Assembly (NCBI RefSeq): GCF_002754475.1
Contig: NZ_PEFL01000001.1
Location: 2,294,001-2,358,000 of the forward strand
Direction of reading: 5' to 3'
Length of the DNA: 64,000 bases
Origin: Comamonas sp. 26
GTDB lineage: Bacteria > Pseudomonadota > Gammaproteobacteria > Burkholderiales > Burkholderiaceae_C
In this document: positions 51,319-60,251 of the stretch, one piece after another
How positions within the stretch are numbered: the stretch's first letter is position 1
Layout: each line of letters begins with the position of its first letter
Made by a program: the position numbers and the translations under genes
Notes under the pieces: model-generated
Seen by the model: only the letters and a program-made list of their open reading frames with translations
Database searches by the model: none
Told to the model about the DNA's origin: nothing

Positions 51319-52104
51319 TCAACGCATCACAAGCCCGCCATCGACCAGCAGCACCTGCCCGGTCATAAAGCAACTGAGATCCGATGCCAGAAACAGCACC
51401 GGCCCCGCTACATCCTCGGGCCGGGCCAAGCGACGCAGCGGCGTGGCGGCCATCAGTGATTCGCGAAATGCTTCTTTGGTGCTCTGGCTGCCCTGTGTCG
51501 GGTAGACCAGCCCCGGCGCCACGCAGTTGACGCGAATGCCCACAGGCCCCAGCTCGCTGGCCAGATTGCGGCTAAAGCCCACCAAAGACGCCTTGGCCGT
51601 GGTGTAGTCGTGATAAGGAACGACCGGGTTCTCTACCAAGTTACTGACGATATTCACAATGCTGCCCCGCGCCCGCTGGCGCATTTGCGGTAGCACCGCA
51701 CGGCAAACATTGAAGGCCGCGCCCACTGCACCATCAAACTGGCTTTGGTAGTCGCTCCACTCTAGATCATCAAAGCGGCGACGCTGCTCAGGGTCAAAGG
51801 TGTAGGGCTTGAAGGCGTTGTTGACCACCATGTCGATACAGCCTGCATCGCGCACGATGCTGTCCACCATGGCCTGAACTTCAGTCGCGTTGCCCACATC
51901 GGCCTTCACCGCCCATGCATCGCCCCCTGCGGCCTGACAGGCTGCCACGGTCTGCTCTGCCGCCGCATCGTTAGACAGATAGTTCACCACCACCGTCGCG
52001 CCCTCACGCGCAAAGGCCAGAGCAATCGCCGCACCAATGCCGCGGCTGGCACCCGTCACCAGCACCACTTTGCCGCGCAGACCCATTAAAGAAGATTGAC
52101 TCAT
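51319..52104 (-). CDS. FabG-like SDR oxidoreductase, probable last gene of the TPP-controlled operon
   Basis: Short-chain dehydrogenase/reductase of 261 aa with TGASRGIG (about 18-25), NNAF in place of NNAG, catalytic Ser in IVSNL, and the Tyr-Lys pair YTTAK after YHD. Its C-terminus (TGQVLLVDGG) is of the 3-oxoacyl-ACP reductase type. It lies 129 bp downstream of the binding-protein gene, across a GC-rich repeat, and on the same strand. If co-transcribed, it could reduce the aldehyde made by the LuxC-like enzyme to an alcohol; this role is inferred from context only. Confidence 0.85.
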   Translation of the reverse strand: MSQSSLMGLRGKVVLVTGASRGIGAAIALAFAREGATVVVNYLSNDAAAEQTVAACQAAGGDAWAVKADVGNATEVQAMVDSIVRDAGCIDMVVNNAFKPYTFDPEQRRRFDDLEWSDYQSQFDGAVGAAFNVCRAVLPQMRQRARGSIVNIVSNLVENPVVPYHDYTTAKASLVGFSRNLASELGPVGIRVNCVAPGLVYPTQGSQSTKEAFRESLMAATPLRRLARPEDVAGPVLFLASDLSCFMTGQVLLVDGGLVMR

Positions 52105-52152
52105 ATTTTCTGATTTCCGGTCAAAAACTGGCGCTCACCACCCCAGAGACAG

Positions 52153-52231
52153 CAAGCAAGAGCCGCCCCGCCGCGATGATGTCGTCCCCTTGCTTCCTGT
52201 TTCAGGGGAAGGCGCAAAGCGCCTCAGGGGG
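52153..52231 (-). repeat. GC-rich 3'-end repeat, copy C (after the NMT1-type binding protein)
   Basis: Begins 2 bases after the stop of the binding-protein gene. In the gene's direction: CCCCCTGAGGCGCTTTGCGCC, TTCCCCTGAAA...AGGGGA, CGACATCATCG, CGGCGGGGCGGCT. It has the same plan as the copies at 43620, 46836 and 63861. Confidence 0.8.
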
Positions 52232-52233
52232 TA

Positions 52234-53232
52234 TTACAACGCCACCACCACATCGGACACCTTGATCTTCCGCTGCACCATGCCCAGCGCACGATAGGCA
52301 TCAGCACCCTTTTGCAAGGCAGCAAGATCAAAGCTGCCCAGGGCCTGCCCTTGCACGGCAGGCAGTGAAGAGGCGTTGCGCAGGCGAATCACATCCAGAT
52401 TGATATCACGGCGCGTTCCATCAATCGCGTATTTGCTGGCCAGAACCGAGGCTTCTTCGGGGTTGGCAAGCATCCAGGCAGCGCTCTCGCGGTAGCCACG
52501 CACAAAGGCCTTGAGCAGGTCTTTCTTCTGATGCAGCACTTCTTCGCGCACCACAAACATGTCGCTGGACATATTCAAGTACTCACTCACTTGCATCACA
52601 TTGACCTCGCCAATCCCCTTGCGCAGGCCAACGGCCAAGCCGGTATCGGTGGCGGCTGTGGCATCAACCTGCCCCTGCATCAAGGGCGCGAAGTTGAGCA
52701 GACCGGTCACGACGATGGTCACGTCTGACTCCTTGAGGCCCGCCTGATGCAGCATCACCAGCAGGTTCTGGCGCGTGCCGCTAGCCAGGCTGTAGACACC
52801 AATCTTCTTACCCTTGAGATCGGCCGGCTTGCGAATGCCAGAAGTCTTGAGCGAGACCACGTTGAACACGTTTTGCGGGTAGATGTCGTAGATGGCGACC
52901 AGCTTCTCGCCCTTGTCCAACGCCATAAAGAAGGAGCCGGGGTCGGTAAACGCCACATCGGCCTGACCGCTCAAAATATTGCGAATGGCATCACCGCCAC
53001 CTGCGCCGGGCAGGTAGTCCAGCTCTACGCCATGGCCCTTGAAGAAACCTTTTTCAGGCTCAGCCAAAAGATTGGTGATTTCGCTGATGGGCTTGCTCCA
53101 GCCTGCCAGCCGAATCTTGCCCTGCATGGGATTCGCCATGCTGGCACTCGTCAGAGAAAGCGCAGACAGACCTGCGCAAGCGCCGATCAGGCTGCGGCGG
53201 GAGATGGTGGGGAGCTTGTTCGATATCTGCAT
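52234..53232 (-). CDS. NMT1/THI5-like ABC transporter substrate-binding protein
   Basis: Periplasmic binding protein of 332 aa of the NMT1/SsuA-like family. The N-terminus ISRRSLIGACAGLSALSL has a twin-arginine and a hydrophobic core, so export may be by Tat. The fold signature includes GWSKPISEITNLL, GGGDAIRNILSGQADVAF, KGKKIGVYSLASGTRQN. Members of this family bind thiamine pyrimidines (ThiY), sulfonates or riboflavin. Because the operon is preceded by a TPP riboswitch, a thiamine-related ligand is most likely. The gene starts 22 bp after the permease stop. Confidence 0.87.
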   Translation of the reverse strand: MQISNKLPTISRRSLIGACAGLSALSLTSASMANPMQGKIRLAGWSKPISEITNLLAEPEKGFFKGHGVELDYLPGAGGGDAIRNILSGQADVAFTDPGSFFMALDKGEKLVAIYDIYPQNVFNVVSLKTSGIRKPADLKGKKIGVYSLASGTRQNLLVMLHQAGLKESDVTIVVTGLLNFAPLMQGQVDATAATDTGLAVGLRKGIGEVNVMQVSEYLNMSSDMFVVREEVLHQKKDLLKAFVRGYRESAAWMLANPEEASVLASKYAIDGTRRDINLDVIRLRNASSLPAVQGQALGSFDLAALQKGADAYRALGMVQRKIKVSDVVVAL

Positions 53233-53254
53233 AAAAAGCGTTCAGTAAAAGCCA

Positions 53255-54061
53255 TCAAAGCTTGCTGCCCAATTGAGCAACTTGCGAAATTTCAGAAACA
53301 ACGAAGTGATGAGAGCGCAGCAAGCGCCGCTCCAGCATCAGGCAGGCCTGATACAGCAGCAGGCCAATGGCCGCAATCAGCACCAGCGCGGCAAACATCA
53401 AGGGAGTGTCCATCATTCCCTGCGCCGTAATCACCACGGCACCCAGACCTTGGCTGGCACCCATGAATTCAGCCACCACCGCGCCGACCAGCGCCAGCAC
53501 CACGGCAACGCGCAGGCCCGCAAGAATGGCGGGCAGCCCGGTCGGCAGTTTCAGCTGCAGCAAGGTCTGCAGGCGTGTAGCCCCCAGCATGCGAAACAGC
53601 TGCAGCCGCTGGGCATCGACCTGGCGCAGCCCTGTAAGCGTGTTTTCCATCAAAGGGAAAAAGCAGATCAGTGCCGTAATCAGCACCGTGGGCAGCATGC
53701 CAAAGCCAAACCACAGCACAAACAGCGGGGCAAGCGCCAGCTTGGGCACAACCTGACTGACCACCACATAAGGCTTGAGCACGCGCTCCAGCAGCTCAGA
53801 CTCCGCCAGTGCCATGCCAGCCAGCAGCCCCACGGCACTGCCCATGGCCAGCCCCAGCAGCAGCGCCTTCAATGTGGAAACCAAATGCGGCCAGAAGTAG
53901 CCGGATACCAGCCCAGACCACAGCGACACTGCCACAGCAGAAGGCGGCGGCAGCACCAGAGCAGACAGGTTAAATCGCCTTGTAGCCAGCTCCCATATTG
54001 CGAGAGTAGCTATCAAAAGCAAAGCAGATAGCAAGCGCGGTCTGTTCAGCAAAGCATTCAT
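53255..54061 (-). CDS. ABC transporter permease (SsuC/ThiX type)
   Basis: Inner-membrane permease of 268 aa with about six helices and a binding-protein-dependent permease loop (DAQRLQLFRMLGATRLQTLLQLKLP). It pairs with the ATPase upstream (ATGA overlap) and the binding protein downstream. A loose ATAGCTG-type repeat (TAGCTATCAAAAGC) is part of the coding sequence for the first helix, near 54007-54020. Confidence 0.9.
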   Translation of the reverse strand: MNALLNRPRLLSALLLIATLAIWELATRRFNLSALVLPPPSAVAVSLWSGLVSGYFWPHLVSTLKALLLGLAMGSAVGLLAGMALAESELLERVLKPYVVVSQVVPKLALAPLFVLWFGFGMLPTVLITALICFFPLMENTLTGLRQVDAQRLQLFRMLGATRLQTLLQLKLPTGLPAILAGLRVAVVLALVGAVVAEFMGASQGLGAVVITAQGMMDTPLMFAALVLIAAIGLLLYQACLMLERRLLRSHHFVVSEISQVAQLGSKL

Positions 54062-54804
54062 GCCACGCCCTTTTCCATGGCTGCGCGCACGCGCGCGCAG
54101 TATTCGTTGAACACGGCGCCATGGCGCATGTCCTGCGTGCGCGGCTCGGGCAGCTCAATCGCCCAGTCATTCACAATGCGCCCGGCATGCATGAGGGCGA
54201 TGCGGTCACCCAGATAGACGGCCTCGTTAATGTCATGCGTCACAAACAGCACCGTCGTGCCATGCTCGCGGCAGGTGCGCAGCAAATCGTCTTGCAGCTC
54301 GGCACGGGTGATGGCATCCAGCGCCGCAAACGGCTCATCCAGCAGCAGCAGCGGCGGCTCAAGAATCAAGGCTCTTGCCAGCGCAACGCGGCTTTGCTGG
54401 CCGCCCGAAAGCTGGCGCGGGTAATGCTGCGCATGGGCTGACAGGCCCAGTTGCTCCAGCAAACTCAGCGCATTGCTCACGTCTTGCTGGGAAGGCTTGC
54501 GCTGCAGCGACACGGGCAGCAGCACATTGCTGAGCACCGTATGCCAGTCCAGCAGCGTCGGGGCCTGAAACATAAAGCCCAGTTGCGGCCCCGGCTCTGC
54601 CAGCTCTTGCCCGCGCAGCAAAATGCGCCCCGACTGCGGGCGCAGCAAACCCGCTGCCAGCTTGAGCAGCGTGGTCTTGCCGCAGCCGCTTCTGCCCAGC
54701 AGGCAATGAAATTCACCGGCCTGCATGCGCCAGTTCACCCCATCGACTACCGGCGGTCGGCCCGGGTAGGTAAAGACGGCCTGCTCAATATCCAGAAAAG
54801 CCAT
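54058..54804 (-). CDS. ABC transporter ATP-binding protein (SsuB/ThiZ type)
   Basis: ATPase of the importer (248 aa). Motifs: Walker A GRSGCGKTT, Q-loop LGFMFQAPTLLDW, signature LSGGQQSRVALARAL, Walker B LLLLDEPFAALD, and H-loop FVTHDINEAVYLGDR. This Q-loop/H-loop pattern is usual in NMT1-type taurine, sulfonate and thiamine-pyrimidine importers. ATG 54804 is preferred (GAGGG about 10 bases upstream) over an ATG at 54831 that overlaps the LuxC gene. Confidence 0.9.
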   Translation of the reverse strand: MAFLDIEQAVFTYPGRPPVVDGVNWRMQAGEFHCLLGRSGCGKTTLLKLAAGLLRPQSGRILLRGQELAEPGPQLGFMFQAPTLLDWHTVLSNVLLPVSLQRKPSQQDVSNALSLLEQLGLSAHAQHYPRQLSGGQQSRVALARALILEPPLLLLDEPFAALDAITRAELQDDLLRTCREHGTTVLFVTHDINEAVYLGDRIALMHAGRIVNDWAIELPEPRTQDMRHGAVFNEYCARVRAAMEKGVA

Positions 54805-54820
54805 GGCGGCGTTGCCCTCG

Positions 54821-56284
54821 TCAATCTGCATAGCTTGCAAGCGGCTGCGCCGCCAGCTCGGCCGACTGTTCAATCTCGGTCATGCGCACCAGATCAAGCA
54901 GGTTAAAGCGCCCGTCGTGGTGCCAGCCTGCCTCAAGCATGCTCATGGAACCAATGGCGCTGATGCGCGTGACACCCGCAGCACCCAGCAAATCGGCCAG
55001 CCGGTACAGCTCCTCAGGTCCAGCGGCAATGCCTGCGGTCTGCAAAAACTCGCGCTGTGCGGCAACTACGGGTAGCACGTGGTCAAGCCGGTCCACCGCC
55101 ACCACCGCAATCGTGCGGTACAGCGCCGTGGGTGCCAGCGGCTGCAAGCTGTCGCTGTAGGCCACACTCCACGCGGCATCTACCGGGCCCAGCAACTGGT
55201 GTGTATCGCCAGCCCACTCCATAGTCTGCTGCCAGCGGGCCACCGTAGCGCCCTCTTCCAGGTCCAGCTCACGGCGCGCAAAGCGGCGCTGCAGATTGGC
55301 CAGCTCGGCAGCCAGATAGTCGGCAAACGCACGCGGCGGCACGGGCGCGCCACGCTCTACATAAAAGACATGGGGCGAGTAGCAGCCTTGCTGGTCGTAG
55401 CGCATCACGTCCCACGCCGCCAGCCGGGCGACTGCCGGAGCTTTGAGAGCATCCAGCGCCGCAGTGCCAATCAGGCCAAAGCCCAGCTTGTGGCCATGGG
55501 GTAAAAAGCGTGTTGTCACCGGCAGGCGCTTGCGCAGCGTATCCAGCGTCTGGTTGCCGCCATAGGCCAGCACCGTATCGGCCTGCGCATACAGCGCATC
55601 AGCCTCCTCGCCGCCCGCTCCGCGCCACCACACCACAGCCAGACAATCGGCCAGCGGCGGATGAATTTCGGCCAGCAAGCGTGCAAACCAGCCTGCAAAC
55701 AAGGGCTCGGCACTGGCCAGCTTGCCCACGGCAGGGGCTTTGACCAGCAGCCCACAAATCAGGCTCCACAGCGACAGCGCAGGCACATTGCCCGCCCAGC
55801 TGTGCACCAGCAAATCAGGCCCGAAGGCACGCACAGCACCACCCTTTGGCGCGGGCTGAAAACCATCCAGCACCGCAGGGTTGGCAAAGTCCTCGGCCAC
55901 AAAGCGTTTGAGCTGCGCGGCGCGAAAGGTCTTGAAAAATCCCGTCAGGCCAAGGCGAACCATATCTGCGTCATAGCCGCTGACCACGGGCAGCCAGGCC
56001 TCGGCCTGCTGGCGATAAGCGTCATTGCGGTCGAGCAGGCGCGCCATGGCGCGGTCAATCACGTCGATGATCTGGGCGACTGTCATGCTGCGCAGATGCT
56101 TGGCCGCAGCATTACGCACCCGGTTTGCCAGCGCCTGCATCTGCTCGCCAGTCAGCATAGGCACAGACACTTCCAGCCGCGTGCCATTGCGCTCAAAGTG
56201 CAGCACATGCCACTGCACCTCGTCGTCGCTCAGCCCCGGCAAATAACCGGCCTTGATCTGCTGCACCTTGCTGTTGGCCGTCAT
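54821..56284 (-). CDS. LuxC-family acyl-CoA/acyl-protein reductase
   Basis: A 487-aa protein of the LuxC family (PF05893), which reduces an activated acyl thioester to the aldehyde with NADPH. The aldehyde-dehydrogenase-like active site is visible: Cys301 in YDQQGCYSP, matching the acylated cysteine of LuxC, and a nucleotide-binding region with HSWAGNVPALS (161-171). No luxAB, luxD or luminescence genes are near. Its ATG overlaps the stop of the LuxE-like gene (ATGA), so the two enzymes are made together, as activator and reductase. Control by a TPP riboswitch suggests a thiamine-related carboxylate rather than a fatty acid; that is inference. Confidence 0.87.
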   Translation of the reverse strand: MTANSKVQQIKAGYLPGLSDDEVQWHVLHFERNGTRLEVSVPMLTGEQMQALANRVRNAAAKHLRSMTVAQIIDVIDRAMARLLDRNDAYRQQAEAWLPVVSGYDADMVRLGLTGFFKTFRAAQLKRFVAEDFANPAVLDGFQPAPKGGAVRAFGPDLLVHSWAGNVPALSLWSLICGLLVKAPAVGKLASAEPLFAGWFARLLAEIHPPLADCLAVVWWRGAGGEEADALYAQADTVLAYGGNQTLDTLRKRLPVTTRFLPHGHKLGFGLIGTAALDALKAPAVARLAAWDVMRYDQQGCYSPHVFYVERGAPVPPRAFADYLAAELANLQRRFARRELDLEEGATVARWQQTMEWAGDTHQLLGPVDAAWSVAYSDSLQPLAPTALYRTIAVVAVDRLDHVLPVVAAQREFLQTAGIAAGPEELYRLADLLGAAGVTRISAIGSMSMLEAGWHHDGRFNLLDLVRMTEIEQSAELAAQPLASYAD

Positions 56285-57363
56285 GCGCTGGCGGCTTTCA
56301 CAAATTCATCCACGGCCAAAGAGCAGCCCTTGGCCGCAGCACCCTCAGCACGGCCCAGCAACAAAAAGCCGCCATCTGCCCACAGGCCCACGTCTTCCGT
56401 CAGGATGGTGCTGACAGAGTTGTAATTGGCCAGATCGCAGTGCACCAGAATGCCGCGTTCGCCAGCGGCCACGCTGCGTCCCGTAATGGGCTCAACCAGG
56501 CGCGAGCGAATCCAGTGCGGGCCAGACTTGACCGAAGGCAGAACTGCGTTGCCGTCGTCATAGAACTGCGTGCTCAGCTCCGTCATGCCATACATATTGA
56601 TGCAGTGCGTGCGCGGAACGCCCAGCAGATCGCTCAGATCGGCATAGAACTCTTCAAGCGGCAACTCACGCGACTGCCCTTTGTAGCCGCCCGTATCCAG
56701 AATGCGGCTGCCTGCAGGCAGCTGAAAACGCAGGCCCTGCGCACGCAAAGCGTCCATGACATGCACCAGACTGAAGCTGGCACCCAGCAGCGCATAAGGC
56801 TGTCCGCTGCGCTGAGACTCCTCCAGCGCGGCGCACAGGCCCGGCACATCCAGCCCTTCAGAGCCCAAAAAGTAGCGACTGTCAGGCGTGCCAAATTCTG
56901 ATTTGGCCAGCGCCAGATAGTGGGCCAGCGATGAATTGGGCATGGCCTGTTCATCGGGGAACAAAATAGCCATGGGCAGGCGCTCAGCCCCTTGCATAAA
57001 GCGCTGCGCAAAATAGCGTTTCATCGACAGGTCATATACATCCAGCTGCGGATGAAAGTGCCGCCCGCGCGCCGCGCGGCCTGTGGTGCCGCTGGTCATG
57101 AAAATGCGCTCTGTGGCCGATGCGGGTTGGCTGCGCAATTCCATTGCCTTGAAGGCATCAATGGGCACAGCAGGAATATCGCTCCAGGTCCTGACATTGC
57201 GCAGCGTGGCACCGCGTCGCTGGCAAAAGCTGCGAAACGGGGTATTAGATTCGTACTGATAGGCGAACTGCCGCAGGGCGAGTTGATCAAACTGGTCGTC
57301 GGTACAAGCATCCTGCGCAATAAATGCCAGCAGGTCTGCAACCAGTGAAGCGGCCTTGTCCAT
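56281..57363 (-). CDS. LuxE-family acyl-protein synthetase (carboxylate-activating)
   Basis: First gene after the TPP riboswitch; 360 aa. LuxE proteins (PF04443) adenylate a carboxylic acid and transfer it to an own cysteine for delivery to LuxC. Seen here: the adenylation P-loop FMTSGTTGRAARG (about residue 90), NMYGMTELSTQFYDD corresponding to the A5 region, and a C-terminal Cys347 in KGCSLAVDEF at the position of the acyl-carrying cysteine. ATG 57363 follows AAGGA; that ribosome site is part of a hairpin. Longer upstream frames run into the riboswitch and are not coding. Confidence 0.87.
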   Translation of the reverse strand: MDKAASLVADLLAFIAQDACTDDQFDQLALRQFAYQYESNTPFRSFCQRRGATLRNVRTWSDIPAVPIDAFKAMELRSQPASATERIFMTSGTTGRAARGRHFHPQLDVYDLSMKRYFAQRFMQGAERLPMAILFPDEQAMPNSSLAHYLALAKSEFGTPDSRYFLGSEGLDVPGLCAALEESQRSGQPYALLGASFSLVHVMDALRAQGLRFQLPAGSRILDTGGYKGQSRELPLEEFYADLSDLLGVPRTHCINMYGMTELSTQFYDDGNAVLPSVKSGPHWIRSRLVEPITGRSVAAGERGILVHCDLANYNSVSTILTEDVGLWADGGFLLLGRAEGAAAKGCSLAVDEFVKAASA

Positions 57364-57369
57364 GAAATT

Positions 57370-57400
57370 CCTTCGAGAGCGAGATGAGGTGCTCCGAAGG
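57370..57400 (-). promoter_or_regulatory. Hairpin sequestering the luxE-like ribosome binding site
   Basis: CCTTCG (57395-57400 on the minus strand) pairs with CGAAGG (57370-57375), which contains the Shine-Dalgarno of the first gene. This is the expected off-state structure of a translation-controlling TPP riboswitch. Which bases of the aptamer compete with it was not resolved. Confidence 0.55.
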
Positions 57401-57443
57401 CCCCCTTGCCAGTGCCACTTGAGCAGGATTGTGCAGGGTGCAA

Positions 57444-57516
57444 GCTCTTCTTCCGCCGGAATAACCCGGATCAAGTTCACGGGTGTAGATCTCAGCACTT
57501 GCGTGCACCCCGGAGC
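57444..57516 (-). promoter_or_regulatory. TPP riboswitch (THI element)
   Basis: Read on the minus strand, the aptamer has the conserved parts of the THI element in order: the P1 5' arm GCUC and GGGGUGC, the invariant CUGAGA, ACCCGUGAACUUGAUCCGGG with the pyrophosphate-side UGAUC, UUAUUCCGG, GCGGAAGAAG, and the closing GAGC of P1. P1, P2, P3 and P4/P5 arms can all be drawn. It lies about 80 bases before the LuxE-like start. High TPP should shut the operon down. Confidence 0.93.
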
Positions 57517-57540
57517 GCGGCAGCATCTTAACTCACCGGG

Positions 57541-58290
57541 TGGGCGTACGGACTGCGCTAGCCTTGCCCCATCAAGCGCTGCGCACGCATAGCAAAAGGA
57601 CTCTGTGCCCTGAAACTGGCTCAGGTATTGCTTCTCAAGCCATATCGATAGTGCTCAACACCTTGCATCCACATGGAAGTTAGGAGTCTTTTGACCCTGA
57701 GCACCCAAGCGCAGGAGCCGTTTTTTATAAAAACCACTGCCCTTACTGAAATTTTTCAACTTTTTTCACCCCCTGTTTTTGCCTGCAGCAAAGCAAAAAA
57801 CAGCGTTTCAAGCCTCCAATCAGGCTTTTAAATACTGGTTTTCAAAGCACCACCGCCGATCTGCGCGGCAAGCTGCGCCAAAACACCGGCAACAACGGCC
57901 AAACGCATTGATCTTCAAACGCACTAATACGCAAGTTAAGCGAGATTGAGCGACAAAGACTGCATAAAAGACGCACAAAAAACGTTCTCCCGCCATCTTT
58001 GCACGATCTATCTGTTAACTGAAGCCAAAGTGCCTTTAAACATTCACCGCAAAGCCGCAAAAGTGAAGAAATCATTTCTTATAGGAAATTCATATAAAAA
58101 GCGCAGCAATTGCATGCTTTTGAAAGCAAATTCACAGCGCTAGAATCCGCCTGCATCGCAACCCTCAGACCGTTTTTGCTGCTGAGGGCCAAGGTTTCGC
58201 CAGTCAGCTCTGTATGTCAGTCCTTCGCCCTCACTTTCCCCATCCAATCCCGTCCGTCCTCGCACCTCAGCGGCCAGCAGGAGTCTGCGC
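57541..58290. other. AT-rich gap between the two divergent vitamin operons
   Basis: About 750 bp, distinctly richer in A+T than the genes on both sides, especially 57720-58140. It should hold the promoters of the TPP-controlled operon (leftward) and of the biotin-transport operon (rightward). A 77-codon frame on the minus strand (57842-58075) has no ribosome site and no recognisable product. No tRNA or known small RNA was identified. Confidence 0.45.
58162..58188 (+). promoter_or_regulatory. Hairpin in the leader of the biotin-transport operon
   Basis: A 7-bp perfect stem CCCTCAG / CTGAGGG with a 13-base loop that includes five T, about 100 bp before bioM. It could be a leader structure or a chance hairpin. 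No BirA- or BioR-type operator was found in the leader. Confidence 0.25.
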
Positions 58291-59055
58291 ATGAGCAGCG
58301 GCATGCAACTGCTCGATATCCGCCTGCAGCGCGGCCAGACCACGGTGTTTGATGGGCTGAACCTGACGCTGCAGCAAAAGCGCATCGGCGTTATTGGCAA
58401 CAACGGCGCAGGCAAATCCAGCCTGTTCAGACTGCTGTGTGGGCTGGAGATTCCACAGACCGGGCAGGTGCTGATGGGCGGCGCAGATTTGCTGCAAGCA
58501 CGCCAGCACAACCCCGGCCTTGTCGGCCTGATGTTTCAAAACCCCGATGACCAGATCATCTTCCCCACCGTAGAGGAAGAACTGGCACTGGGTCTGCGCC
58601 CCAAGGGTTTGAACAAGCAACAAGCCAAGGCCAAAGCCCGCGAGCTGCTGACTGAGCGCGGACTGGCCCACTGGGCCGAGCGCGCCGTCAGCAGTCTCAG
58701 CCAGGGCCAGCGTCAGCAGGTATGCTGGCTGTCGCTGCTGATTGCATCGCCCCAGGTGCTGCTGCTTGATGAACCTTTTGCCAGCCTGGACCTGCTCGGA
58801 CAGGCGCGGCTGGCGCGGGACATTGCCGCTGCGCCCCAGCAAATTCTGGTCTCTACCCACGTACTCGAGCATGTGCGCGACTTTGAGCGCGTGATCTGGC
58901 TGGAACAAGGCAAGCTGCGCGGCGACGGCCCCGGCCGCGAGGTCTGCAGCGCTTATGAAGAGGCGGTTGCGGCACAAATCTCCGCAGAACTGGCTGCCAG
59001 TCTGAATCCTTCAAGCGCAGCCACCCCGCACACAGGCGAGCCACACCATGGGTAG
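58291..59055 (+). CDS. bioM: ECF biotin transporter ATPase
   Basis: Energising ATPase of the energy-coupling-factor biotin importer (254 aa). It has Walker A GNNGAGKSS, the ECF-type Q-loop FQNPDDQIIFPTVEEE, a signature SLSQGQRQQV, and Walker [13 protein letters not shown]. The context before bioN and bioY identifies it as BioM. ATG 58291 has AGGAG 7 bases upstream. The last 8 bp overlap bioN. Confidence 0.9.
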   Translation: MSSGMQLLDIRLQRGQTTVFDGLNLTLQQKRIGVIGNNGAGKSSLFRLLCGLEIPQTGQVLMGGADLLQARQHNPGLVGLMFQNPDDQIIFPTVEEELALGLRPKGLNKQQAKAKARELLTERGLAHWAERAVSSLSQGQRQQVCWLSLLIASPQVLLLDEPFASLDLLGQARLARDIAAAPQQILVSTHVLEHVRDFERVIWLEQGKLRGDGPGREVCSAYEEAVAAQISAELAASLNPSSAATPHTGEPHHG

Positions 59056-59641
59056 CCTCTACAGCCAATACGCCACCTGGCTGCACCGCTGGCCAGCCGG
59101 GCTCAAGCTCTTGCTTTTAGCCGTGTTTGGCACGCTATTGTTTTTAATAGCCTCCCCCTTGCTGCTGGCGGGCTGCGGCGTGTTTTGCATGATGCTGTGG
59201 CTGTCGCTAGGCCAGGCCACGCAGATTGCCCGCAGGCTGATGCGCTCGGTCATCATCGCGGCGCTGCTGGTGGCGGGCTTTCATGTTTTCATGGGCAACC
59301 GTGAACTGGCCGCTGCCAGCGCCCTGCGGCTGATCTGCGCATCTACGTTGGGCATTGCTCTGACCATTACCACCCGCCCCAGCGATCTGGTGGAGGTGCT
59401 GGAGTGGCTGCTCTCGCCGCTTGCCAAACTGGGGATTCCTACCGAGCGCGTGGCCATGCAAATTGCGCTGATGCTGCGCTTTACCGAACACTTTTTTGTG
59501 CAATGGAAAAATCTGGACGACGCCTACCGCCTGCGCACCGGCAAAAGCGGCGGCCTGCGCCTGATTGCACCGCTGACGATTCACATGCTGCAGGCCACGC
59601 GTCGTGTGGCCGACGCCCTCTGGGCACGACTGGGCTTCTAA
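59048..59641 (+). CDS. bioN: ECF biotin transporter transmembrane coupling protein
   Basis: T-component of 197 aa with four to five hydrophobic helices. It links the ATPase to the biotin-binding protein BioY through the Arg-containing cytoplasmic helices near the C-terminus (LQATRRVADALWARLG and the region near residue 155-165). It overlaps bioM by 8 bp and is followed by bioY after 16 bp. Confidence 0.88.
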   Translation: MGSLYSQYATWLHRWPAGLKLLLLAVFGTLLFLIASPLLLAGCGVFCMMLWLSLGQATQIARRLMRSVIIAALLVAGFHVFMGNRELAAASALRLICASTLGIALTITTRPSDLVEVLEWLLSPLAKLGIPTERVAMQIALMLRFTEHFFVQWKNLDDAYRLRTGKSGGLRLIAPLTIHMLQATRRVADALWARLGF

Positions 59642-59657
59642 ATTTTTCGGAGACATG

Positions 59658-60251
59658 ATGAACACTTCTTCCTCCCACACCGTATCGCGCCAAGGCGCAC
59701 GCTCCATGGCTCAGGTCTCGCTGTTCGCGGCGCTGATGGCCGTGATGGGCCTGATCCCCAAGATTGACCTGCCGTTTGGCGTGCCCATCACCATCCAGTC
59801 GCTGGGCGTGATGCTGGCAGGCGTCATGCTCGGCCCGTGGCGCGGTCTGCAGTCCATGCTGCTATTCCTCGCTGCCGTGGCCGTGGGCTTGCCCCTTTTG
59901 TCTGGCGGGCGCGGCGGTATTGGCGTGTTCATGGCACCGTCTGCCGGTTATCTCATCGGTTATGCGCTGGCCGCTGGCATTACGGGTGCCATCATGGCGA
60001 CCCTGCCGCAAAGCACGCCCCGCCGCACAGCCTTCAGCGCCTTTATCGCCTCCGTGGTCGGTGGTCTGCTGTGTCTGCATGCCTTTGGCGTGTTGGGCCT
60101 CATGCAACTGGCCAATATGAGCTTTGTGCAGGCCTTCAAAGTGACGCTGGCCTTTGTGCCCGGCGACTTCATCAAATGCATTCTCTGCGCCATCATCGTC
60201 CACACCGTGGCGCGCGGCATGCCTGACTGGCGCTTCGGCGGCCGTCGATGA
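59658..60251 (+). CDS. bioY: Biotin transporter substrate-binding protein BioY
   Basis: S-component of the ECF importer (197 aa), six hydrophobic helices, binds biotin in the membrane. Family motifs are clear: IPFGVPITIQSLGV-like LPFGVPITIQSLGVMLAGV, GLPLLSGGRGGIGVFMAPSA (around residues 80-98), and FVPGDFIKCILC near residue 170. ATG 59658 has GGAG 5 bases upstream and is preferred over the ATG three bases before. Its stop overlaps the next gene's start (ATGA), tying the acyl-CoA ligase to biotin uptake. Confidence 0.95.
   Translation: MNTSSSHTVSRQGARSMAQVSLFAALMAVMGLIPKIDLPFGVPITIQSLGVMLAGVMLGPWRGLQSMLLFLAAVAVGLPLLSGGRGGIGVFMAPSAGYLIGYALAAGITGAIMATLPQSTPRRTAFSAFIASVVGGLLCLHAFGVLGLMQLANMSFVQAFKVTLAFVPGDFIKCILCAIIVHTVARGMPDWRFGGRR

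Follow-up and report, generated by a model that had tools for sequence, protein, structure and literature searches.

A six-gene operon behind a TPP riboswitch sequence

The operon analyzed here lies in a 64,000-nucleotide stretch of the Comamonas sp. 26 genome (contig NZ_PEFL01000001.1), hereafter referred to as the window. On the minus strand, from position 57522 to 51319, a thiamine pyrophosphate (TPP) riboswitch aptamer is followed, in this order, by genes for a LuxE-like protein, a LuxC-like protein, the ATPase and the permease of an ABC transporter, a binding protein of the NMT1/THI5 type and a short-chain dehydrogenase/reductase (SDR). A first-pass annotation, made from the sequence alone, had named these parts and described them as mostly overlapping or tightly spaced on a single strand. 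Rfam and Pfam searches recovered every part. According to open reading frame (ORF) coordinates, with the ATPase start taken at 54804, the LuxE and LuxC genes overlap by 4 bp, as do the ATPase and permease genes, and the remaining gaps are 16 bp (LuxC to ATPase), 22 bp (permease to binding protein) and 129 bp (binding protein to SDR). The six-gene operon behind a TPP riboswitch sequence is real. Its components are as follows.

57431..57522, minus strand: TPP riboswitch aptamer (THI element), Rfam RF00059, kept in orthologous loci
57370..57400, minus strand: candidate expression platform, proposed from the sequence and ViennaRNA folds
56281..57363, minus strand: LuxE-like acyl-adenylating protein, 360 amino acids (aa), Pfam PF04443 4.5e-20 (405-aa frame scanned)
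54821..56284, minus strand: LuxC-like thioester reductase, 487 aa, Pfam PF05893 7.9e-80, PDB 7xc6 chain A E 1.9e-16
54058..54804, minus strand: ABC transporter ATPase, Pfam ABC_tran 3.3e-33
53255..54061, minus strand: ABC transporter permease, Pfam BPD_transp_1 6.8e-31
52234..53232, minus strand: NMT1/THI5-type binding protein, predicted model nearest ThiY, Pfam NMT1 1.4e-50
51319..52104, minus strand: SDR oxidoreductase, proposed to carry out an aldehyde-to-alcohol step, Pfam adh_short_C2 4.6e-59

The LuxE-like gene most likely starts with the ATG at 57363, 67 bases past the aptamer, and codes for 360 aa. A 405-aa ORF beginning with a GTG at 57498 would overlap the aptamer. A scan for promoters and terminators was uninformative, with one promoter-like site against 2.3 expected and 12 terminator-like sites against 10.3 expected.

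The aptamer scored 53.4 bits against RF00059 (E 2.3e-9), with the alignment spanning the full model (1-105). This is slightly below the gathering score of 54.3, and the Rfam scan of the window at the gathering threshold therefore returned no match; the aptamer was found by a scan of positions 57200-58400 at a weaker threshold. Orthologous aptamers from three related loci (L078, L082 and L083; such numbers denote individual loci throughout) exceed the gathering score. The conserved RF00059 core, CUGAGA and the distal helix loop, is present, and 25 columns are invariant across 22 aligned sequences. An RNA model, R1, comprising 22 sequences (21 from the 80 related loci described below and the window copy) was used for searches; it contains only 7 base pairs and works mainly as a sequence profile.

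The leader offers two alternative pairings. An anti-Shine-Dalgarno (anti-SD) segment CCUUCG (57400-57395) can pair with the SD sequence CGAAGG (57375-57370), and the CGGAGC segment (57396-57391), which overlaps the anti-SD, can alternatively pair with GCUCCG (57516-57511) of the aptamer helix P1. The corresponding ViennaRNA folds are mutually exclusive: the SD-paired fold is the minimum-energy one at -62.6 kcal/mol and the SD-free fold is predicted at -56.3 kcal/mol. In raw counts over 76 loci, the longest exact match is a pair containing GCUCCG in 30 and one containing CGAAGG in 18. We infer that the leader follows the logic of a translational off-switch, through which TPP would repress the operon in vivo.

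Conservation of the operon and the thiamine genes joined to it

When species genomes were scanned with the LuxC protein, 110 places were confirmed, and the best 80 of these were used for conservation counts. The six-gene order is identical in 75 of these 80 loci. Four of the exceptions (L023, L032, L054 and L057) reach contig ends; the fifth, L082, is missing the permease and the binding protein, and its sole ATPase match lies elsewhere. The carriers span two phyla, proteobacteria and Bacillota. Most are betaproteobacteria (Comamonas, Delftia, Acidovorax, Variovorax, Ramlibacter, Achromobacter, Bordetella, Thauera, Polaromonas); the others include Azospirillum, Bosea, Erwinia and Pantoea, and, in Bacillota, Geobacillus, Domibacillus, Oceanobacillus and Ammoniphilus. 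A TPP element is present upstream of the operon in 76 of the 80 loci. Contig limits account for two of the absences (L032 is cut and the L063 contig begins inside thiD); in L061 and L062 the element was found neither by the RNA model nor by Rfam at the gathering threshold. The element is also present in 15 of 16 additional loci, none of which was used in the model, the exception being a 3.5-kb contig. Identical thiC positions indicate that two of these 16 loci come from genomes already counted (L105 from that of L075, and L110 from that of L034).

Two observations on individual loci were made along the way. In L082 (Pantoea dispersa) and L098, the TPP element, luxE, luxC and SDR gene are found without the ABC importer, and no replacement importer was identified. 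In L011, a record labeled Pantoea sp. 18069, the operon copy is Comamonadaceae-like, with LuxC 84% identical, which mislabeling, contamination or transfer may explain.

As a control, the 30 best-matching LuxC-family loci from 398 Pseudomonadota genomes were collected with about 1.5 kb of flanking sequence on each side. The TPP model matched six of them, which are exactly the six independently found orthologues of the operon. No TPP element was detected within the flanks of the 24 non-orthologous loci; given the flank length, a riboswitch farther away would be missed. The operon order and its linkage to the TPP element are more than chance.

In an unrooted LuxC tree of 48 rows (31 chosen operon proteins, including those of L062 and L063, where no TPP element was found, and 17 controls), the branches are long, and the operon set lies on one side of a single branch with support of 100/100. 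The divergent Bacillota member L095 groups with the operon set. In a 51-row version of the tree, controls L136 and L140 fell inside the operon group on branches longer than 8 changes per column. Both, together with L128, were left out of the 48-row tree, because they were wrong ORF picks without a useful BLAST match to operon LuxC. Separately, L116:238-2700 codes for an 820-aa LuxE-LuxC fusion, confirmed by Pfam in L116 only; in six control loci from one genus LuxC is part of an ORF of about 830 aa, and the 4 kb retrieved there contained no TPP match.

Thiamine genes have been recruited into the operon repeatedly. In nine loci (L041, L054, L056, L057, L059, L060, L063, L074 and L108) thiD stands before luxE, and in all of these except the cut L063 a TPP element precedes thiD; thiD of L054 and L060 was confirmed by Pfam. 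In L074, from a genome lacking thiC, a single TPP element is followed on one strand by thiD, luxE, luxC, the importer, the SDR gene and then thiE, thiO and thiG. Downstream of the SDR gene, L059 has thiO, thiG and thiE on the same strand, and L060 has thiE; there thiO and thiG, preceded by a second TPP element, are oriented towards thiE. In L103, thiD, thiO, thiG and thiE lie just past the SDR gene, thiD being on the opposite strand, and in L084 thiM directly follows the SDR gene. L095 contains two divergent TPP elements, one leading into thiD-thiM-thiE and the other into luxE-luxC-SDR-AIRS/ThiN; the last gene (L095:10826-12379), downstream of the SDR gene, codes for AIR-synthase-like domains fused to ThiN (PF10120). 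No thiamine-gene neighbor was found in the other loci by tblastn within the retrieved flanks. The first-pass annotation had treated the absence of a conserved linkage between these LuxC/LuxE relatives and thiamine genes as grounds for rejecting its proposal. Such linkage is clearly seen in the TPP elements of the 80 loci, in their absence from the 24 controls and in the thiamine genes inside the operon.

Thiamine pathway genes of the carriers

Pathway genes were examined in 49 carrier genomes, from 50 of the 80 loci (L082 was left out). ThiC is present in 43 of them and ThiG in 48. ThiM was found above the cut-off in 11 genomes; seven of the other 38 contain weak ThiM-family matches only. ThiM is the usual entry point of hydroxyethylthiazole into the pathway, and its absence makes salvage of thiazole unlikely for most carriers. 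This bears on the idea that the operon enzymes turn 4-methylthiazole-5-acetic acid into hydroxyethylthiazole by reduction, for which the location of thiM right after the SDR gene in L084 and in the divergent cluster of L095 can be cited. The ThiM and ThiG counts speak against it, as do the nine loci that have thiD, not thiM, before luxE, and the similarity of the binding-protein model to the pyrimidine-binding 3ix1 (see below). We consider reduction of the thiazole acid very unlikely.

ThiC is missing from seven of the nine genomes with thiD before luxE (those of L059 and L108 have it) versus seven of 64 other carriers (Fisher p 6e-5, a value that overstates independence, because related Ramlibacter-type genomes and drafts dominate the thiD-bearing group). 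The 64 carriers come from three samples (43+10+11), the genome of the window, which has ThiC, and family genomes repeating counted loci being left out. Among these 64, two of the seven genomes without ThiC are incomplete assemblies (55% and 86% complete). Of the seven genomes that have thiD before luxE and no thiC, six retain ThiG (the match in that of L063 is partial); the exception, without ThiG, is the genome of L056, a 3.0-Mb metagenome-assembled genome.

In a sample of 160 genomes from the family of the window's genome, a LuxC orthologue was found in 16. Among these carriers 15 of 16 have thiG, versus 88 of 144 non-carriers (p 0.011). Of the 55 genomes that have neither thiC nor thiG, only one carries the operon, and its assembly is 55% complete. 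The operon tends to go with thiazole-making cells, which fits a supply of pyrimidine and speaks against the salvage of thiamine derivatives taken up intact. The last point concerns the possibility that intact thiamine acetic acid is imported and reduced to thiamine. Such a system should aid full auxotrophs, yet these hardly ever carry the operon, and the linkage to thiD, thiO, thiG and thiE would be left unexplained. We regard this alternative as improbable.

The operon was also considered as a replacement of ThiC in all carriers. This was rejected, since most carriers have ThiC and since thiC is not significantly depleted among carriers of the family sample (p 0.29; p 0.06 among thiG-positive genomes). 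The window's own genome has both ThiC and ThiG. One genome weighs against a supply of pyrimidine, that of L095, which lacks thiC and thiG and has thiM. The operon product is most likely the pyrimidine hydroxymethylpyrimidine (HMP) rather than the thiazole, because of the linkage to thiD, the loss of thiC with thiG kept and the infrequent presence of ThiM; the binding-protein model, nearest ThiY, also favors the pyrimidine.

Operon proteins and a proposed route of pyrimidine salvage

In the Pfam scan the 405-aa LuxE-like frame scored 72.3 bits against PF04443 (gathering score 24.9) and the LuxC-like protein 269.1 bits against PF05893 (gathering score 21). Scores against the fatty-acid equivalogs are far below their cut-offs: 70.8 bits for LuxE with NF052244, long-chain-fatty-acid-protein ligase (cut-off 550), and 84.2 bits for LuxC with NF052251, long-chain-fatty-acyl-CoA reductase (cut-off 750). 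Alignments revealed invariant residues in all three enzymes: Cys347 and T90-S91-G92-x-T94 in LuxE (38 sequences), Cys301 in LuxC (33 sequences), which aligns with a Cys of 7xc6_A, and Tyr167 and Lys171 in the SDR (28 sequences). The predicted LuxE model has a predicted local distance difference test score (pLDDT) of 87.2, and its nearest structures among the matches listed are acid ligases of the PaaK type; 7xc6 is not among the best 50 matches of this structure comparison.

Enzymes of the LuxE and LuxC families are named for fatty-acid reduction, and 7xc6, the LuxE-LuxC fatty-acid reductase of luminous bacteria, is the only PDB sequence match of either protein. The two systems share Pfam families, the conserved LuxC cysteine and the adjoining luxE and luxC genes. 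Unlike the luminous system, the operon has a TPP element, an additional SDR and an importer, and its LuxC is separate in the tree; no luxA or luxB luciferase gene was detected among ten of the ORFs between 48876 and 60251 that were scanned. That the enzymes act on fatty or other aliphatic acids as in bioluminescence, TPP control being incidental, is hard to reconcile with the equivalog scores, the TPP-free LuxC-family controls and the repeated joining of thiamine genes, and we consider it extremely unlikely. The SDR, in turn, scored 286.8 bits against NCBIfam NF006393 (3-oxoacyl-ACP reductase PRK08642; cut-off 292), and some proteins named NF006393/PRK08642 may be this thiamine-linked SDR.

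The best PDB match of the binding-protein predicted model is 3ix1, a ThiY-type protein that binds formylaminopyrimidine (FAMP), with 18% identity in the structural alignment, followed by thiamin-bound 4nmy. The predicted fold is ThiY-like, of the NMT1 type with 3ix1 as the nearest solved structure. ThiY binds a thiamine pyrimidine, and the ThiY/ThiXYZ importer works with YlmB-TenA salvage of FAMP. The operon resembles that system in having an NMT1-family ABC importer and differs from it in its enzymes, LuxE, LuxC and SDR instead of an amidohydrolase and TenA; neither tenA nor ylmB was found among the six operon proteins, to which that search was confined. Unlike yeast THI5 HMP synthase (4h67, 4h6d, 4esx), the NMT1/THI5-type gene of the operon adjoins ABC ATPase and permease genes and is therefore expected to code for a binding protein, not an enzyme.

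A CytX-like putative HMP permease is encoded elsewhere in the genome of the window (228.9 bits, cut-off 309.85). Its gene lies behind a weak TPP match (35.6 bits; L004:1501-3003), with a further TPP element some 4 kb away. This genome also has ThiC and ThiG. Here the operon would be an additional source of pyrimidine, and its importer is probably not for HMP itself.

Members of the LuxE family adenylate an acid and form a thioester, the acyl group is transferred to LuxC, which reduces it with NAD(P)H, and SDRs convert aldehydes to alcohols. The comparative data make it rather probable that the operon directs TPP-repressed import of a thiamine-pyrimidine carboxylate, which LuxE, LuxC and the SDR then reduce to HMP. 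The imported acid is probably 4-amino-2-methylpyrimidine-5-carboxylate; the substrate, like the direction and order of the chemistry and the action of the riboswitch, is proposed from these data. At low TPP the riboswitch would permit translation, and the ABC importer with its ThiY-like binding protein would take up the carboxylate. With ATP, the LuxE-like protein would convert the acid to an acyl-adenylate and then to a thioester on Cys347. The acyl group would move to Cys301 of LuxC and be reduced with NAD(P)H to the aldehyde, which the SDR would convert to HMP. ThiD would phosphorylate HMP, and ThiE would couple the product to thiazole phosphate. The reverse, degradative direction is unlikely, because the operon sits behind a TPP riboswitch and has an importer. 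Of the two acids offered by the first-pass annotation, which had suggested salvage of a carboxylated thiamine fragment, the comparative evidence fits TPP-linked import and reduction with the pyrimidine acid favored and the thiazole acid disfavored.

Carboxylic acid reductases (CAR) activate acids with ATP, form a thioester and reduce it with hydride to an aldehyde. The operon enzymes would follow the same logic. They are not members of that family: the activity would be split over LuxE- and LuxC-type proteins, with cysteines instead of a carrier domain.

Supply of the thiamine pyrimidine from another precursor or by other chemistry (another pyrimidine acid, a conjugate, or a precursor unrelated to thiamine) should also be weighed. 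The thiD/thiG/thiC pattern indicates the branch to which the product belongs, not the substrate, and for LuxE, LuxC and the SDR only the reaction classes are known. Together, though, the three enzymes are the set expected for conversion of an acid to an alcohol, and no acid leads to HMP more simply than the C5 carboxylate; uptake of ready-made HMP, for which the window's own genome has the putative CytX-like permease, would require none of them. We think that such a precursor is less likely, with a modest chance of being correct. The references of PMC7780320 include a 1964 title on 4-amino-2-methylpyrimidine-5-carboxylate from rat urine, and, as far as a title allows, we counted the acid, as a natural product of thiamine, in favor of the carboxylate route.

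The system thus appears to be a variant of thiamine-precursor salvage, with enzymes that fall within the LuxE and LuxC Pfam families and outside the fatty-acid equivalogs. It seems moderately likely that it represents a second, hitherto unreported route of vitamin B1 pyrimidine salvage, through a split LuxE/LuxC reductase and an SDR, that replaces ThiC in some bacteria, such as that of L074. The first-pass annotation knew of no thiamine system using LuxC/LuxE. Searches of open-access literature, with few subscription journals and no preprints, likewise listed no report of a TPP riboswitch joined with LuxE/LuxC, acyl-protein synthetase or acyl-CoA reductase, and nothing relevant to this system on the acid, TPP regulons, LuxE/LuxC or carboxylate reduction in salvage. 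Papers that mention thiamine, LuxC and riboswitch together were, judging from titles and the opening of abstracts, on other topics; LuxE was not found in the main text of a survey of riboswitch regulons (PMC3766115). If the proposed route is correct, oxidized thiamine waste would be usable as a source of the vitamin, the way in which bacteria lacking thiC are classed as pyrimidine auxotrophs would change, and relatives of LuxE and LuxC would gain a vitamin-related function outside bioluminescence.

On the plus strand, divergent from the operon, positions 58291-60251 contain energy-coupling factor (ECF) biotin transporter-like genes, which Pfam matches to an ABC ATPase, a CbiQ-type protein and BioY.

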